From the NCBI GenBank assembly GCA_002791575.1, contig PFXI01000041.1:1-45271 (forward strand): 45,271 nt of DNA, read 5' to 3'. The notes beneath the pieces were generated by a model. That model had not been told where the DNA came from. It did not search any database and was given only the letters and a program-made list of their open reading frames with translations. This stretch comes from Zetaproteobacteria bacterium CG_4_9_14_3_um_filter_54_145. GTDB taxonomy: Bacteria; Pseudomonadota; Zetaproteobacteria; Mariprofundales; Mariprofundaceae. The translations under genes and the position numbers were made by a program. Of the stretch, positions 1,056-13,447 are shown one piece after another (position 1 is the first letter of the stretch; each line of letters opens with the position of its first letter).

Positions 1056-3310
1056 TCAAAAGTGCAGGTGGAAGGTGCGGTTGATTACGTCGAGCTGCTG
1101 CTCACGGGTAAGCTTGATGAAATTCACCGCATAACCCGATACGCGCAGTGTCAGCTGCGGATAGTTCTCCGGATGCTCCATCGCATCCAGCAGCGTATCC
1201 CTGTTCAGCACGTTGACATTGACATGAAAACCGCTGGCATTACAGAACACATCAACACAGTTGCTCAGGTTATTCACCTGATCTGACAGCGTGTGGCCCA
1301 GCGCACTCTCCGTACAGGTTGCCGTCCACGAAATGCCATCCAGTGCCGCCTTGTATGGCAGCTTGGCTACCGATGCGCCGGAAGCGATAAAACCCTTGGT
1401 ATCGCGTCCGTTCATCGCATTGGCACCCGGTGCAAACGGCTCACCGGCACGGCGTCCGTCCGGCGTATTGCCGGTCTTCATGCCGTAGACCACATTGGAG
1501 GTGATGGTCAGCACCGACTGGGTAGGTGTGCTGTTGCGGTAGGTTTTATGTTTGCGGATCTTCTCCATAAACGTTTCAACCAGCCATACAGCAATCTGAT
1601 CCACACGGTCGTCGTTGTTACCATAAGCCGGATATTCGCCTTCAATAGCAAAATCCTTGGCGATGCCATGCTCATCACGCAGTACACGCACTTTGGCGTA
1701 CTTGATCGCCGAGAGTGAGTCGGCTGCCACCGACAGGCCGGCAATGCCGCATGCCATCGTGCGCAGCACATCACGGTCATGCAGTGCCATTTCGATACGC
1801 TCGTAATGGTATTTGTCATGCATAAAGTGGATACCGTTGAGCGCTTTGATATAGGTCGTGGCCAGCCACTCCATCATCTGCTCGAACTTCGCCACCACCT
1901 CATCATAATCCAGATATTCACTGGTGATCGGCTCAAATCCATCGACAATCTTCACGCCGCTCTTTTCATCGACGCCGCCATTGATCGCATACAACATGGT
2001 TTTTGCCAGATTGCAGCGTGCACCGAAAAACTGCATCTGCTTGCCGATACGCATGGCCGATACACAGCAGGCAATGGCATAGTCATCGCCCCAATGCGCG
2101 CGCATCAGATCATCCGATTCATACTGGATAGCACTGGTTTCAATAGAGACCTTCGAACAGAAATCCTTGAACCCTCTGGGCATGGCATTGGACCACAGTA
2201 CCGTCAGATTCGGCTCGGGTGCAGGTCCCAGATTATACAGTGAGTGCAGGAAGCGGAAACTGCTGCGGGTAACCAGTGTACGTCCATCCTCGCCCATGCC
2301 GCCGATCGCTTCGGTGTGACCCAGGCAGGATCGCCCGAGAAGAGCAGATCGTATTCCGGCGTACGCAGAAAACGCACGATACGCAGCTTGATCACCAGAT
2401 CGTCGATCAACTCCTGTGCCGAGGACTCATCCAGCAGACCCGCATCGATATCGCGCTGGATATAGATATCCAGGAAGGTGGAGATGCGACCGATCGACAT
2501 GGCCGCGCCATTCTGCTCCTTGATTGCAGCCAGATAACCGAAATAGGTCCACTGCACGGCCTCTTGAGCGGTTGCCGCAGGGCGTCCGATATCAAAGCCG
2601 TAGCTGGCCGCCATCTGCTTGAGCTCATCCAGTGCCCTGATCTGCTCGGATAGCTCTTCACGGGTGCGCAGCACCTCTTCACTGAAGACCACGCTGTCCA
2701 GCTCGCTTTTTTCGCGTTTTTTATCGGTGATCAGGAAATCGACACCGTAGAGTGCCACACGGCGGTAATCGCCGACAATGCGGCCACGGCCATAGGCATC
2801 CGGCAAACCGGTGATAATACCGGAACGGCGGCAGGCCAGAATGTCCGGGCTGTAAATATCAAACACGCCCTGATTATGATCTTTGCGGTAGAGCTTAAAA
2901 GCCTGTTTCACGGCCGGATCAAGCTTGAAGCCGTATGCCTCAAGGCCTGCTTCGACCATACGCAGACCGCCGTTCGGCACGATGGCGCGCTTGAGTGGCG
3001 CATCGGTTTGCAAACCGACAATCAGTTCCATCGCTTTGTTGATATAGCCCGGTTTATGGGCGGTAATAGAAGAGCCGATATCACTGGATACATCCAGCAC
3101 GCCCTTGAGGCGTTCCTGCTCGATAAGTTTTGATATCTCCACCCACAGCGCACTGGTGCGCTCGGTGGCGGCAGCCAGAAAGCTGTCATCGCCTGTGTAG
3201 GGTGAGTAATTCTGCTGAATAAAATCGCGGAGATCTATGCGGCTTTGCCACGCACTGCCGTTAAAGTCGAGCCAGGGTTGCAAATCCGGATCTGTTTCTG
3301 GTGAGTTCAT
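1056..3310 (-). pseudogene. pflB: Pyruvate formate-lyase, interrupted by one frameshift
   Basis: It converts pyruvate and CoA to acetyl-CoA and formate anaerobically. The N-terminal part (3310 to about 2318) reads MNSPETDP... through [17 protein letters not shown]. The C-terminal part (about 2313 to 1056) resumes in another frame with [15 protein letters not shown] and runs to the normal end. Together they give about 750 aa, the usual PFL length (760). All key residues survive: the catalytic Cys-Cys pair in AIACCVSAM and the glycyl-radical loop RVSGYAV near the C-terminus. The break fits a 2-bp duplication (GTGT at 2314-2317 on the plus strand); removing one GT restores the family sequence W-V-T-E-x-I-G-G-M-G. 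Start chosen at the ATG at 3310 (AGGTG upstream), not the longer frame to 3373. Either a recent inactivation or a sequencing error. Confidence 0.9.
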
Positions 3311-3390
3311 GATAACACCTATACGTGCTGATGTGTTGCAAATTGCCACAAACCAAAAGTGTTGCAGCATCACTTCTGCAAGGGGAGAGA

Positions 3391-7245: not shown

Positions 7246-7728
7246 TCAGTTCAGCTTTTCCAGCTCGCTACCGCCGTGGCCGGCATCCACCTTCAGGCGT
7301 CGGATGCCGTGGGTTGACCATTCATTCAGATACCACTCACTCAATTCCGTGATTTTCCCGATCCGCTCAAAACGGGCCAGCGCTGCAAAGCCCTCTTCCC
7401 CGAACTCGCCCACCAGATCGCGTGCGGCCAACCGGTCCGCCAACTCCTCCCAGAAGGACTCCTCCACATACGCATCAATGCACTGCAGGTAATCCGCTTC
7501 AAATTCCTTGGTTTCAAAGTATTCATCCCGTTTGTCATCATATTCGACCAGTGCACTCATCCCGGCATTGTGGGCGATGCTCTGCAACTTGCGCAGCACA
7601 TGTTTATGCGCCACCACTGCCGCATCAGCGCGCTCATTGCCCTCCAGGTGACCGTGTTTGACCCACTCGCCGATACAGGCCAGCTGCAACAACAGCGACA
7701 GCTCCTGCGGTGTCAGACTGATATCCAT
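7246..7728 (-). CDS. Uncharacterised 160-aa acidic protein
   Basis: I do not recognise the family. The protein is acidic and predicted mostly helical, with no signal peptide or membrane segment. Its N-terminus (MDISLTPQELSLLLQLACIG) is a helical Leu-rich segment. The middle carries a conserved-looking acidic and aromatic stretch (DDKRDEYFETKEFEADYLQ, then YVEESFWEELADRLAARDL). The C-terminal half has GKITELSEWYLNEW. Codon use looks like its neighbours. It lies 134 bp downstream of the hybrid kinase on the same strand, so it might be read from the same transcript, but the spacing does not force that. It is followed by the gap with the DnaA-like boxes. Confidence 0.75.
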   Translation of the reverse strand: MDISLTPQELSLLLQLACIGEWVKHGHLEGNERADAAVVAHKHVLRKLQSIAHNAGMSALVEYDDKRDEYFETKEFEADYLQCIDAYVEESFWEELADRLAARDLVGEFGEEGFAALARFERIGKITELSEWYLNEWSTHGIRRLKVDAGHGGSELEKLN

Positions 7729-7862: not shown

Positions 7863-10421
7863 TTACGCTTTGCTCAGGGTTTCGCGTATCAACTGACTCA
7901 ATCTGGATACCGCAAACGGCTTGCTGATCACTTTTTCGCTAAAAACCTTGCCCCTTGAGCCGAGCGCGCTGAGCTTGTCATAGCCTGTGGCATATATGGC
8001 TTTTACATCCGGATTGATCTGACGCATCTGCCTTAGCGCATCCACACCACCCAATCTCGGCATAACAATATCCAGGATAACCAGATCAATCTCATGCTGT
8101 TGCTCCCTGTAACATTCAACCGCCACCAGACCGTCCTCCGCAACCAGCACCTGATAACCCAGCCCCTCCAGCACATCGCGGCCGGTATCCAGCACGGTTT
8201 CATTATCATCAACCAGCAGGATCGTTTCCCCGCAGCCCTGCATGATCTCATCCTCACTCTTCACCACGCTGTCTGGCTGACCGGACTCAATAAGGGGAAG
8301 GCAAAATCTCACGGTTGTACCCGTAGGTTCGGTTGTGGATGTTTCAATATCAATGACGCCGCCATGGGTTTTTATCGCCCCGTAAACCATGGCCAGACCC
8401 AGCCCTGTTCCTCGTCCCTGCTCCTTGGTGGTGAAAAAAGGCTCAAACACATGCTCCAGATGCTCTGCACTGATACCCGTACCGTTATCAATCACCGAAA
8501 TACAGGCATAGTCTCTCTTCTCCTGGCCTTCATGCTTTTTGAAAAAATTGTCATCGGCATGATAATGATCCAGGCTGATCGCAATCGAGGGGTTCGCCCT
8601 CTCCTGCACGGCATCATAGGCATTGTTGATCAGGTTCATCAACACCTGCTGTAGCTGGTTGATATCACCCTTGATCTGCATATCCGTGTCGTTGATGCTG
8701 TACTCCAGCTTCACATTCTCCGGCAGGGAGGCGTGTTGTAACTTGATCGTCTCCTTTAGAAATGAGGAAATGGTAACCGGCACCATCGCCACCACCCCTT
8801 TACGGGAGAAGGCCAGCAACTGCTGGATCATCGCGGCAGCGCCAAAGGAGAGCTTCTCGACACTATCGAGCCGCCTGATGACATCCGGCATATGACCCGC
8901 CGCTTTCTTGGCCAGATAGAGGTTGCCGGTAATGCCCGCCAGCGTGTTATTGAAATCATGCGCTATACCGCCAACCAGCGTGCCGATTGCTTCCATCTTC
9001 TGCGACTGGTGAAACTGCGCCTCGAGCAATTCAAACTGCTCCAGATTCTGCTGTATGCCGACATAATGGGTGGTCGCGCCGGCATCACTCCTGATCGGCG
9101 AAATGGTCAGCATGGCCGGATATAGGGTGCCATCCTTCTTTCTGTTGATCACCTTACCCTGCCATGTTCGGCCATCGGTAATGGTATGCCACATCTGCTC
9201 ATAGAACAGCCTGTTCTGGTTGCCGCTTTTCAGCAGATTTGCCTTCCGGCCCAGCGCTTCCTCTTCACTATAGCCGGTGATCTCCGTATAGGCCGGGTTA
9301 ATATGTACAATTTCACCTTCGGCATCGGTAATCACAATCGCCTCACCGGACTGCTCCATCGCCCGCGAGTAGCGCCGCACCTTCGCTTCGGCCTGCTTGC
9401 GCTCGCTGACATCGCGTACCAGGGCGATTGCAAACAGCTCCCCTTGCTGCTCAAGCCTGCCGATGCGCACCTCAACCGGAAAGGTGGAGCCATCCATCCT
9501 GCGCTGGGTGCCTTCAACCGTCACCGCCTCACCCCGAGCAATGCGGGCAAACAGTTGCAGGACATCCTCTGCCGAAAAATCCTCATCCACATCCGGAATC
9601 GAGCGGGCAAGCAGCGCCTCTCTGGTATAGCCAAGACTCTCGCATGCCGCCCTGTTGACATCGACAATTTTGCCGTTGCGATCAACCAGCAGAAAAGCAT
9701 CCGTGGCATTATCAACCAGTGCCCGGAACCGGCTTTCGCTCTCCTTTAATGCCATTTCCCGCTGCCGGATACTCTCCTGCATCTGGTTGATTCCTTCAGC
9801 CAGCTGACCGATCTCATCCCGACGGGAAACCGCCACCACCACCGGGTAGTCACCGGCAGCAATGGAGCGTGTTGCCTCAAGCATGCGCTGTAAACGCCTG
9901 ACAACCAGCCTGTTCAAAGAAGCAACGAGGATCACCACCATCAACAGCGCCAGCAGCGCCACATTCGCGGCCTTGCGCAGCAGCCGCTCGTTGAGCAGAG
10001 CCTGCATAAACTGTTTGGTCAGATAGACCTTCACCGAACCGATTTGCTCGCCCGCCCGCAAAATCGGACGCATTTGCACCAGATAGTCGCCACTGATGTG
10101 GTTGGTAGAGTCCACTACCGCCCACGATTGATTCCGCTGCTTGCCGACAAACAGTTTGCCGTCAGCCTCGACAAACATCGCATAGATGCGCTTGTCATCC
10201 ATCTCGCTGTCGATCACTCTTTCAGTCCACTCTTTATCGATCTCCCATAGGGGCAGGGCAAGGCTTTCGGAGAGGCGGTTAACCTTGATCGTTGTCAACT
10301 CCTCCAGCTCCTGCAACTCATTGCCCTGCGAGATACGGTATTCATTGACTTCCGATGCAATCAGACCGCCGCAGACAATGGCGATGGCAATCAAAATGAG
10401 GCTGGTTTTGATGCTGTTCAT
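7863..10421 (-). CDS. Membrane hybrid histidine kinase (two PAS domains, C-terminal receiver)
   Basis: 852 aa. Order: membrane segment at about 7-27, a periplasmic sensor of about 120 residues (with [18 protein letters not shown], typical of small double-membrane-anchored sensors), second membrane segment at about 152-172, HAMP at about 175-225, PAS1 at about 230-345, PAS2 at about 350-465, HisKA with the phospho-His in GGIAHDFNN near 488, and HATPase_c with N-box [11 protein letters not shown]1 DNGTGI, F-box FFTTK and G2 GTGLGLAMV. The receiver spans about 732-850, with acidic pocket VDDNE near 738 and phospho-acceptor Asp in VILDIVMP near 783. There is no output domain and no adjacent response regulator, so the phosphoryl group must leave via another protein. 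Its ATG overlaps the stop of the upstream solute-binding protein gene by 4 bp, indicating translational coupling with the likely ligand receptors. Confidence 0.92.
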
Positions 10422-11224
10422 TGCGCTATGCCGCCGACAAAACGATAGAGCCGTGAAAAATGCTCCAGCTCCGGCATATAGTGCTCCGGCAGCAATCCAG
10501 CGCCGTAATATTTTTTCACAATCGCACTGTATTCGCCACTATCCACAATGGTCTGCAGTCCCCGGCGATAGGCCTGCGCCACAGCCGCGGCATCGGGCTG
10601 CTGCTGCGACAACAGGATGGCAATCGGCGCCTCCGACTGCTCAACCGGGTTTACTGCAAAGGCATCGATCTCATCCGGAAACAGGTTGCGAATCATTTGA
10701 CGACCGACCAGCTCCACCTCGATCACCAGATCGATCCGACCTTTTCTGAGTTTACGAAACAGCGATGCCTGTGAATAGCTCTCCTCGACATCGATACCGG
10801 CTCTGGCAAAAGCGCTACGATCCACCAGCGCACCCTTGAGCATGCCCACCTTGAAGCCCTTCAGATCCGCTAGTGAAACGACCGAGAAGGCCTCACCATC
10901 ATGGTTCGGTTTGTAATAAAACAGGGCCACGTGGTAAACAGCAATCGGGATAATTGCGGCAAAATCCTGATTGCGCAGATAGAAGACCGGATTGCCAAGA
11001 TCGTTATTATCATCTTCGGCAATCATGCGCTGTAGCGGCTTGAATGACAGAACTGTCGTGACTCCGGCCGCTCTGGAGATCGCCTGCACAATCTCGCCGC
11101 CCATGCCGAAGCCTGTCATCGACTCAGACCAGTAGGGCGGGCTCTCATTGGCATCGAGCACCACACTCCCGGCCATCGCCGGGGATGTCGATAACAGTAT
11201 GGCCACCAGCATCCGTTTCAGCAT
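10418..11224 (-). CDS. Periplasmic solute-binding protein, family 3-like (second of a pair)
   Basis: 268 aa from the ATG at 11224, chosen because it opens directly into a signal peptide (MLKRMLVAILLSTSPAMA, cleavage after AMA). The mature protein has the bilobed SBP_bac_3 pattern: an N-terminal strand with DANESPPYW, then GFGMGGEIVQAISRAAG, FKPLQRM, the hinge-region LADLKGFKVGMLKG, and an RKGRIDLVIE segment near residue 180. The C-terminus ends with a helix and YRFVGGIAQ. It overlaps the downstream hybrid-kinase gene by 4 bp and follows a related gene 31 bp upstream. No ABC permease or ATPase gene is nearby, so a role as ligand sensor for the kinase is more likely than transport. The ligand is unknown. 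Confidence 0.82.
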   Translation of the reverse strand: MLKRMLVAILLSTSPAMAGSVVLDANESPPYWSESMTGFGMGGEIVQAISRAAGVTTVLSFKPLQRMIAEDDNNDLGNPVFYLRNQDFAAIIPIAVYHVALFYYKPNHDGEAFSVVSLADLKGFKVGMLKGALVDRSAFARAGIDVEESYSQASLFRKLRKGRIDLVIEVELVGRQMIRNLFPDEIDAFAVNPVEQSEAPIAILLSQQQPDAAAVAQAYRRGLQTIVDSGEYSAIVKKYYGAGLLPEHYMPELEHFSRLYRFVGGIAQ

Positions 11225-11255
11225 GCTGCAAGCCCGATATACACGATAAGCATGC

Positions 11256-12098
11256 TCACAAACCTTGTCCGGCACTGAATGACTCCAGTCGTCTGAGATA
11301 GAGCTTGCCATGCTCGGCACCCAGATATTTATCCAGGATAGTGCCGTATCGGCCATCCTTCACCATAGCGGCCAGCGCCTGCTTGAAGCGGGCTGCCGCG
11401 TCTTCGCCCGCTGCATGCTTGCGATTGAAAATCATATAGAGCACTTCATTGTCGACCACATCCGGCAAACTGACAAACTGCTCCTTTTCATCTGCCATAT
11501 AACGGTCCAGCAGCCACTCTATCGTCAGCGGCGGCACCTCGATAAAATCCACGTCACCGCGCCTGAGCTGCTTGAGCAGCGACATTGTGTTTCCGTATTT
11601 GACCGTACACCCCGCAGCTGTAAAACGACTGACATCCTCATCCTGATGCGAGCCGTAAACCAGCTGCTTGAGGTGGTCACTATCGAGGTTCAATCCGTCC
11701 GGGTGCTGCGGTTTGTAGTAGATATACTGCTCTTCCATCACCATGACCGGAATGATGATCAACGCCTTTCTCTGCACATCAGAGAAATGCAGGTGGCGAC
11801 CCATCACAGCCAGTGCATTCTCCTGCAGCAGGTAGTAATTCACCATACGTTTGAGCGGGTGAATGGAAAGATCGGCATCAATGCCGGCCGCCATCAGGGC
11901 TGTGCGCACAATCTCGGATACAGATCCCCCATCCACCACATCGGTTGAGACATAGGGAGGAAAGTCGACCGTATGAATCTCGTTTTCGTGCGCTGAAAAC
12001 AGCGTAGTTGTCACCCTGGGTCCGGTTGCAGATGCCACCGGCGCCAGCAGTACAAACGAGAGCAGTAGCGGCAGCAGCATCATCTGTGTCCTCTTCAT
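11256..12098 (-). CDS. Periplasmic solute-binding protein, family 3-like (first of a pair)
   Basis: 280 aa from the ATG at 12098, preceded by GGGAGAG and followed by a signal peptide (MKRTQMMLLPLLLSF to PVASA). The mature part carries VDFPPYVS, GGSVSEIVRTALMAAG, IHPLKRMVNYY, RRGDVDFIEVPP and a C-terminal MVKDGRYGTILDKYLG, which fits family 3 solute-binding proteins. It shares the P-L-(K/Q)-R-M position and the overall plan with the next gene, so the two look like diverged paralogues. It starts 14 bp after the serine hydrolase stop codon. As with its partner, no transporter genes accompany it. Confidence 0.8.
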   Translation of the reverse strand: MKRTQMMLLPLLLSFVLLAPVASATGPRVTTTLFSAHENEIHTVDFPPYVSTDVVDGGSVSEIVRTALMAAGIDADLSIHPLKRMVNYYLLQENALAVMGRHLHFSDVQRKALIIIPVMVMEEQYIYYKPQHPDGLNLDSDHLKQLVYGSHQDEDVSRFTAAGCTVKYGNTMSLLKQLRRGDVDFIEVPPLTIEWLLDRYMADEKEQFVSLPDVVDNEVLYMIFNRKHAAGEDAAARFKQALAAMVKDGRYGTILDKYLGAEHGKLYLRRLESFSAGQGL

Positions 12099-12112
12099 CG
12101 TGGCTCTCCCTG

Positions 12113-13447
12113 TTAATCTGCAATGGCCGATGCCGACTGCACCAGCACCTTGTCCCAAAGCTCAAAATGGTGCCCGAACGGATTGGTCTGACTCATAAAG
12201 ATCGTGATCTTCTGCTCTTTGGGATCGACACTGAAGCGGGTGGAATAAATACCCGCCCACTCATAGGTGCCGACATCGCCACTATCCACGCTATGCTCAC
12301 GATCGACCTGAATGGCGAAGCCTAGTCCGAACTTCCAGCCATGGCCGTGCAGAAATACCGCATCGTGCTCACCGATATGGTTGGTTGCCGTCATCAACTC
12401 AACTGTTTTGCGGCTCAGCAGCCGCACACCATCCAGCTCACCACCATTGAGCAGCATCTGCGTAAAGCGGTAATAATCGTAAACCGTGGAAAGCATGCTT
12501 GCCCCACCGGCCAGATATTTACCCGATGATGCCCTGGCATCGCCCGGATTCAGACAGAGATCGCCGGCAACAATCGGCTTCTCATCGGAAGCTCTGACCA
12601 GCCCGCCCTGCCAGTCACTCTGCCACACGGCCGCCAGCCTGGGTAACTTCTCTTCAGGCAAATAGAAGTAGCTGTCTTTCATTTTAAGCGGCTTGAAGAT
12701 ATGCTCTTCGACATAGCGGTCGAACGTCATACCGGAGACAACCTCCACCAGATATCCCAGCACATCGCTGTTCAGGCCATAGTCCCAGACCTCTCCCGGC
12801 TGGGCATAGAGCGGCAAGCCTCCCAGCCGTTTGACCATATCACCGATGGCCTCATCGGGCCGACAGAAGCCGTCGGTAATGCCGGCCTCCTTGTACATCT
12901 GCACAATCATATTGCGTGCAGGATCCGGGTAGACATCATTGAGAAAGAGATAGAGCAGGCCCGAGGTGTGGGCAAGCAGATCACGAATCTGCACTTCGCG
13001 TTTTACCGGCACCAGCCGATAGGGAAATTCAGCACCCGCAGGATTTGCAATCAGCACCTTCTGGTTGCGGAACTCGGGGATATATTTGGCGACCGGATCG
13101 GAAAGCAGCAACTTGCCCTCTTCATACAGCATCATGATCGCCGTACTGGTCACCGGCTTGGTCATCGACACAACCCTGAAAATGGTATCGCGCTGCATGG
13201 GTTTACCGACATCTGCCAGCCCCGACGCCTTGAAGTAGGCAATCTCACCCTTGCGCGCCACCAGCACAACCGCACCACCGATCTTTTTTTGCTCTACATA
13301 GTTCTCGATCAATCGATCCATATTTGTCAGGCGTGCGGCAGAAAGCCCCACACTTGCCGGTTTAACCATATGGTAGTCAGCCGCTGCGGATGGCTGGCTG
13401 CAGCAAACAGGTAGCAACAGGGCAAGCAGGAGCAACAGTACATTCAT
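12113..13447 (-). CDS. Exported serine hydrolase of the class C beta-lactamase / esterase family
   Basis: 444 aa. The N-terminus is a hydrophobic export signal with two cysteines (LLLPVCCSQPS) that could be a poor lipobox. The beta-lactamase fold is shown by the nucleophile motif S-x-x-K as SMTK near residue 95, a Tyr-x-Asn as YGLNSD near residue 225, and an H-x-G element in FLHGHGWKFGLGF near residue 370. These residues fit the AmpC-like family, which also contains esterases, D-aminopeptidases and penicillin-binding-like hydrolases; the sequence does not tell which. It heads the minus-strand unit leading into the two solute-binding proteins and the hybrid kinase, which suggests that it may release or modify the compound they sense. 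That link is inference. Confidence 0.85.
   Translation of the reverse strand: MNVLLLLLALLLPVCCSQPSAAADYHMVKPASVGLSAARLTNMDRLIENYVEQKKIGGAVVLVARKGEIAYFKASGLADVGKPMQRDTIFRVVSMTKPVTSTAIMMLYEEGKLLLSDPVAKYIPEFRNQKVLIANPAGAEFPYRLVPVKREVQIRDLLAHTSGLLYLFLNDVYPDPARNMIVQMYKEAGITDGFCRPDEAIGDMVKRLGGLPLYAQPGEVWDYGLNSDVLGYLVEVVSGMTFDRYVEEHIFKPLKMKDSYFYLPEEKLPRLAAVWQSDWQGGLVRASDEKPIVAGDLCLNPGDARASSGKYLAGGASMLSTVYDYYRFTQMLLNGGELDGVRLLSRKTVELMTATNHIGEHDAVFLHGHGWKFGLGFAIQVDREHSVDSGDVGTYEWAGIYSTRFSVDPKEQKITIFMSQTNPFGHHFELWDKVLVQSASAIAD

Follow-up and report, generated by a model that had tools for sequence, protein, structure and literature searches.

A Mariprofundus-type zetaproteobacterium with a genome of 2.85 Mb carries four linked genes for an exported serine hydrolase, two paralogous solute-binding proteins (SBP1 and SBP2), and a membrane hybrid histidine kinase. 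With moderate confidence, this cassette is read here as a horizontally mobile, transporter-less periplasmic sensor in which SBP2 reports the ligand and SBP1 is mainly an adaptor. It looks like an environmental sensor rather than a chance cluster, and it recurs in iron, methane, and sulfur oxidizers of two phyla.

In the mechanism that we infer, the esterase-type hydrolase would act in the periplasm on a small compound of ester or amide type, making, trimming, or removing it, and SBP2 would bind the resulting (or the consumed) ligand. SBP2 would also dock on the PAS/Cache-like periplasmic domain and alter the activity of the sensor. SBP1, a diverged paralogue with a dispensable ligand-closing lobe, would be chiefly an adaptor that probably links the hydrolase to the rest of the complex. 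The sensor of most lineages would feed into c-di-GMP turnover through a REC-HD-GYP partner or a fused GGDEF-EAL, and the hybrid kinase of Mariprofundus would presumably act on a response regulator encoded elsewhere, for which an HD-GYP protein of the genome is a plausible candidate.

Organization of the locus

The genes lie on the minus strand of the window, the whole stretch of 45,271 nucleotides that was analyzed, in the order hydrolase (12113–13447), SBP1 (11256–12098), SBP2 (10418–11224), and kinase (7863–10421). Gaps of 14 bp between the hydrolase and SBP1 and 31 bp between SBP1 and SBP2, followed by a 4-bp overlap of SBP2 and the kinase, bore out the coupling described in the first-pass annotation. 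Its statement that the locus has no ABC transporter and no output regulator also held, as neither was present among the neighboring window genes scanned. Both SBP genes start with ATG; an alternative upstream TTG at 12158 is possible for SBP1, and a longer ATG frame from 11356 is also present for SBP2. A promoter scan returned a single weak site upstream of the hydrolase (13499–13470), a number of sites within the range of shuffles. The neighbors are housekeeping genes, with a divergent rlmN upstream and ppnN, a deaD-type helicase gene, and pfl downstream.

Downstream of the kinase, a 160-aa ORF (7246–7728, minus strand) had no Pfam or NCBIfam match and turned up in none of the other cassette loci checked. 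The pyruvate formate-lyase gene (1056–3373) consists of two overlapping minus-strand frames (2204–3373 and 1056–2297) matching the two halves of TIGR01255, which indicates a frameshift, either real or sequencing-derived.

Conservation and probable horizontal spread

Hydrolase, SBP1, SBP2, and sensor keep a fixed order and strand in 39 of the 46 loci with a hydrolase of this subfamily. The search for co-occurrence proposed in the first-pass annotation thus found the order kept across two phyla, so that its own refuting case, a neighborhood not conserved in relatives, is clearly overturned. The idea of a co-inherited, transporter-less sensing module was upheld, since the cassette recurs with varying flanks and outputs and the operon includes no cognate transporter. 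Median gaps across the cassettes were 14, 12, and 3 bp. The other seven loci comprise three cut by contig ends, three with the hydrolase and SBP1 only (L125, L129, and L131), and one solitary hydrolase; one further locus, L028, has only SBP2 and the sensor. Because of these partial cassettes, the genes seem to form two sub-modules, hydrolase with SBP1 and SBP2 with the sensor, and the three hydrolase-SBP1 loci argue that this pair can act independently of SBP2 and the kinase. The solitary gene (L091, 5059–6393) is a long-branched second hydrolase copy, and the genome that carries it has a complete cassette as well.

Could a carboxylesterase and binding proteins have come to lie beside a kinase by coincidence? 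Other PF00144 homologues, about 41% identical, do occupy unrelated contexts, and the L091 copy stands alone. A chance neighborhood is nevertheless ruled out by the order conserved in 39 of 46 loci, in two phyla and between different flanks, and its probability is negligible.

Hydrolase, SBP1, and SBP2 occurred together in seven Mariprofundus genomes; the other members of the genus that were searched yielded no hydrolase and no SBP pair. Two conserved SBP2 peptides, used to scan 84,980 species at one genome apiece, recovered the cassette in MAGs of Methylococcaceae, Campylobacterales/Sulfurimonas, and Gallionellaceae. A hydrolase profile run against whole genomes was positive in 8 of 228 genomes of the Sulfurimonas family, 11 of 158 of the Gallionellaceae family, and 19 of 201 of the family of the Methylococcaceae MAG, and in evenly drawn class (369) and phylum (399) samples it found the hydrolase only in these same groups.

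The hydrolase is the best-conserved component, with 55–82% identity to the window, followed by SBP2 (31–52%), SBP1 (13–55%), and the sensor (17–46%). The hydrolase tree splits into two deep clades that recur in the trees of SBP2 and the sensor, and in all three it is the same genomes that group outside their own family. On these phylogenies, the cassette therefore appears to have been transferred horizontally as a whole unit. All plasmid homologues of the hydrolase were below 60% identity (those listed, 38–42%). Plasmid carriage of the cassette was rejected: two plasmid homologues with annotated surroundings lacked it, and a third record is unannotated there.

The exported hydrolase

The hydrolase matched PF00144 with 222 bits (E 1.2e-65), and its closest solved structures are the family VIII esterases 7pp3 and 4ivi, not DD-peptidases. 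It shares with these carboxylesterases the PF00144 fold and an active site of the SxxK / Y / W-x-G type. The SxxK motif, the catalytic Tyr, and the W-x-G box are all present (S94-x-x-K97, Y223, and W397-A-G), and these residues are invariant across 46 homologues. Because esterases are nearest and S94, K97, Y223, and WAG do not vary, the protein is probably an active enzyme, esterase-like rather than an AmpC lactamase. A class C (AmpC) beta-lactamase identity was rejected, with a model score of 55.9 bits against a cut-off of 415 and WAG in place of KTG. The earlier label "AmpC-like hydrolase" therefore survives as an exported PF00144 hydrolase and loses its AmpC part. Motif, model scores, and nearest solved relatives likewise ruled out a cell-wall peptidase, and the previously suggested peptide or peptidoglycan substrate is disfavored by the family VIII relatives and the SxxK / Y / WAG motif.

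With at least 55% identity to the window protein, the cassette hydrolases stand apart as a group, and the next relatives are at about 41%. We know of no linkage of the solved family VIII homologues (7pp3 and 4ivi) to SBPs or sensors.

An esterase-like fold and motifs would also suit a negative element that destroys an environmental ester- or lactone-type compound, leaving the SBP2-kinase pair to sense the undegraded remainder, and L028 demonstrates that SBP2 and the sensor can occur without the hydrolase. Strict linkage of the hydrolase and its very high conservation across phyla would be expected of a single fixed substrate in both cases and do not discriminate; this negative role is considered rather improbable.

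The paired binding proteins and the loss of a lobe

SBP1 and SBP2 are homologous (27% identity, E 5e-19). SBP1 has no Pfam match at all, and its AlphaFold model (pLDDT 84) matched the type II SBPs GluR0, LAO, and GlnBP with a probability of 1.0; a conserved ATGPR motif directly follows its signal peptide. SBP2 is SBP_bac_3-like, scoring 20.2 bits against PF00497, below the curated Pfam cut-off of 26.4, and in a profile search it matched AncQR (1.5e-8) and LAO. Of the earlier assignment of two family 3 solute-binding proteins, the type II SBP fold was retained, from the model for SBP1 and from homology to SBP1 and the profile search for SBP2, and the PF00497 label has less sequence support than that assignment suggests. 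The arginine of canonical family 3 amino-acid binders does not seem, from the sequences, to be retained in either protein.

Alignment revealed that residues ~125–214 of SBP1, the whole of lobe 2 between both hinge strands, are missing in frame in 13 loci. In the window protein, lobe 2 (residues 125–214) is encoded at 11457–11726 on the minus strand, and the modeled hinge strands span residues 113–128 and 208–225. Twelve of the lobe-less loci are of the Gallionella type, with the sister locus L136 full length, and the other is L089 of the Sulfurimonas family, known from one assembly, whose relatives L087 and L088 retain lobe 2. By this alignment, the lobe has been lost on at least two separate branches, in L089 independently of the Gallionella type. 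The shortened proteins keep the signal peptide, the ATxPR motif, and the C-terminal helices. SBP2 is lobe-complete in 39 of 39 full cassettes.

One lobe by itself cannot clamp a ligand, so in the lobe-less loci at least, SBP1 probably serves as an adaptor rather than reporting a second ligand. The first-pass annotation had proposed that the two binding proteins report different ligands, and the contrast between an SBP1 without lobe 2 in 13 loci and an SBP2 complete in 39 of 39 speaks against it. In the fuller form of that proposal, each paralogue would bind a ligand of its own and signal it to the kinase, with the hydrolase only supplying one of the two. The strong divergence of the paralogues would fit, as would the full-length SBP1 of most cassettes outside the Gallionella-type clade. 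Against this, at least two branches have lost lobe 2 in cassettes that are otherwise complete, and the amino-acid-binder arginine is seemingly gone from both proteins, so two ligands are judged unlikely.

In a Mariprofundus cassette from a single-contig genome (L025, 7977–8705; G008), SBP1 is frameshifted near its N-terminus and the cassette is otherwise complete.

Sensor domain and signal output

The kinase consists of a transmembrane segment, a periplasmic domain, a second transmembrane segment, HAMP, two PAS domains, DHp/HATPase, and REC (PF00072, residues 734–845, 7887–8222, minus strand). H488 and D784 are invariant within the genus. The periplasmic domain of ~125 residues (residues ~28–150, 9972–10340, minus strand) models as a single PAS/Cache-like domain (AF2, pLDDT 81) and matched the WalK model 9a5d (E 2e-8) and the CdgS9/LapD-type 4u64 (E 1e-3). 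Domain order and sensor model agree with the earlier description of a membrane hybrid kinase with its own small periplasmic domain. Identity with the hybrid kinase CckA was rejected (equivalog model 279 bits, cut-off 1000).

Other transporter-less pairs of an SBP and a hybrid kinase lie near cassettes (L023, 7875–11000; L021, 11003–14253; L100, 11700–15001), with SBPs of the Peripla_BP_4, NMT1, and phosphonate-type classes. The L023 kinase, which adjoins a Peripla_BP_4 SBP, gives a full-length match to the cassette sensor profile, and hence the cassette sensor family also occurs alongside SBPs of another class. Upstream of another Mariprofundus cassette (L024, 509–5855), a DUF1638-kinase fusion, a response regulator, and a REC-PAS-kinase-REC protein are encoded in a row.

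The PAS/Cache-like sensor fold is common to all cassettes, and the output part changes. Hybrid kinases serve in Mariprofundus, in most methanotrophs, and in most Gallionella-type loci examined; the Sulfurimonas locus L033 has a plain kinase with separate REC and REC-HD-GYP genes, and in L034 and L096 the sensor is fused to GAF/PAS-GGDEF-EAL. A c-di-GMP enzyme is adjacent (mostly REC-HD-GYP) or fused (GGDEF-EAL) in 24 of the 40 non-Mariprofundus loci, one of which (L132) has its GGDEF gene on the opposite strand, and such an enzyme lies at most 4 kb away in six more of the 40. None of the seven Mariprofundus loci has a linked c-di-GMP gene.

At the window locus, the only phosphorelay output element is the REC domain of the kinase itself. 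The first-pass annotation let the signal leave by an unlinked phosphotransfer protein. A search of the window genome with the HPt family PF01627 alone gave hits only inside four large frames of 785–1054 aa, none standalone, and most non-Mariprofundus relatives have a linked c-di-GMP output, both of which weigh against that route. The window genome has 10 HD-GYP domains. Its best full-length match to the REC-HD-GYP of methanotrophs and Gallionella-type loci is just 33–35% identical (L143), and therefore no specific Mariprofundus partner is claimed; a c-di-GMP output in Mariprofundus would be an extrapolation from relatives.

The genomes of redox-interface bacteria, Gallionella and Sulfuricurvum among them, carry unusually many c-di-GMP genes (PMC3770913). 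This richness fits the distribution of the cassette, yet it raises the background of adjacency, and because many of the hosts are so rich in such genes, some of the adjacency is expected (PMC3770913); nor do related loci count as independent cases. For Zetaproteobacteria, c-di-GMP has been put forward as a link between sessile growth and the formation of stalks (PMC8250860).

Relation to known receptors

As in SBP-activated receptors, an SBP gene is coupled here to a membrane receptor with a periplasmic sensor domain, in an operon without a cognate transporter and with a c-di-GMP or phosphorelay output (c-di-GMP in relatives, REC only in the window). In the LuxPQ and TorTS type, a periplasmic SBP presents its ligand to a hybrid kinase, and the signal leaves by phosphotransfer. 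Both systems, cited as examples of SBP-hybrid kinase pairs (PMC11113362, PMC9602780), differ from the cassette in having one SBP of another fold class and no hydrolase. NspS-MbaA of Vibrio cholerae likewise couples an SBP to a membrane receptor that alters c-di-GMP (PMC8967002), but its SBP is a single polyamine binder without an enzyme or a paralogous partner. ScrABC of Vibrio parahaemolyticus is an operon of a signal-making enzyme, a periplasmic SBP, and a c-di-GMP-controlling membrane receptor, with no transporter (PMC11315295). Its enzyme ScrA is an aminotransferase, it has a single SBP, and GGDEF-EAL is part of ScrC itself, whereas the cassette combines a PF00144 serine hydrolase, two paralogous SBPs, and mostly histidine-kinase receptors. 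On the best-supported reading, the cassette encodes a transporter-less, enzyme-coupled SBP receptor whose closest working counterparts are ScrABC and NspS-MbaA, from which it differs by a hydrolase and paired SBPs.

The likeness to ScrABC might extend to function, with the hydrolase making the cell's own extracellular signal of density or surface, SBP2 passing it to the sensor, and c-di-GMP falling or rising. The logic would be that of ScrA (enzyme), ScrB (SBP), and ScrC (GGDEF-EAL) (PMC11315295); the hydrolase is far better conserved than the sensor, and L034 and L096 hold direct GGDEF-EAL fusions. A class V aminotransferase directly upstream in L021 and, by sequence match, L022 would also suit this scheme, but it flanks two Mariprofundus loci only. 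Moreover, ScrA is not a hydrolase, and an exit of the product from the cell finds no support in these data, leaving a self-made signal possible, though not favored. The two aminotransferase genes, from two Mariprofundus species, are on the same strand as the cassette (L021, 3897–5027, Pfam-tested; L022, 3433–4560, with the same sequence start).

The preferred reading, a ligand-reporting SBP2 with SBP1 mainly as adaptor, places the cassette among transporter-less SBP-activated receptors, already known in kind. No combination of a serine hydrolase, an SBP, and a kinase or c-di-GMP system was described in the open-access literature searched, in line with the first-pass claim that no described system has exactly this make-up. 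A bolder proposal, held only tentatively, is that of an undescribed receptor architecture in which a periplasmic hydrolase is wired through a paralogous SBP pair (one reduced to a single-lobe, pure adaptor in some lineages) to a c-di-GMP/phosphorelay receptor, shared horizontally among iron, methane, and sulfur oxidizers at oxic-anoxic interfaces and sensing a common extracellular compound.

Only about ten SBP-activated sensor kinases have been characterized (PMC9602780), and the cassette would add an enzyme-coupled, two-SBP version to them. The loss of a lobe in SBP1 is an evolutionary experiment on what an SBP needs for signaling, and the cassette gives a tangible starting point for learning what Mariprofundus, Gallionella, and other redox-interface bacteria perceive.
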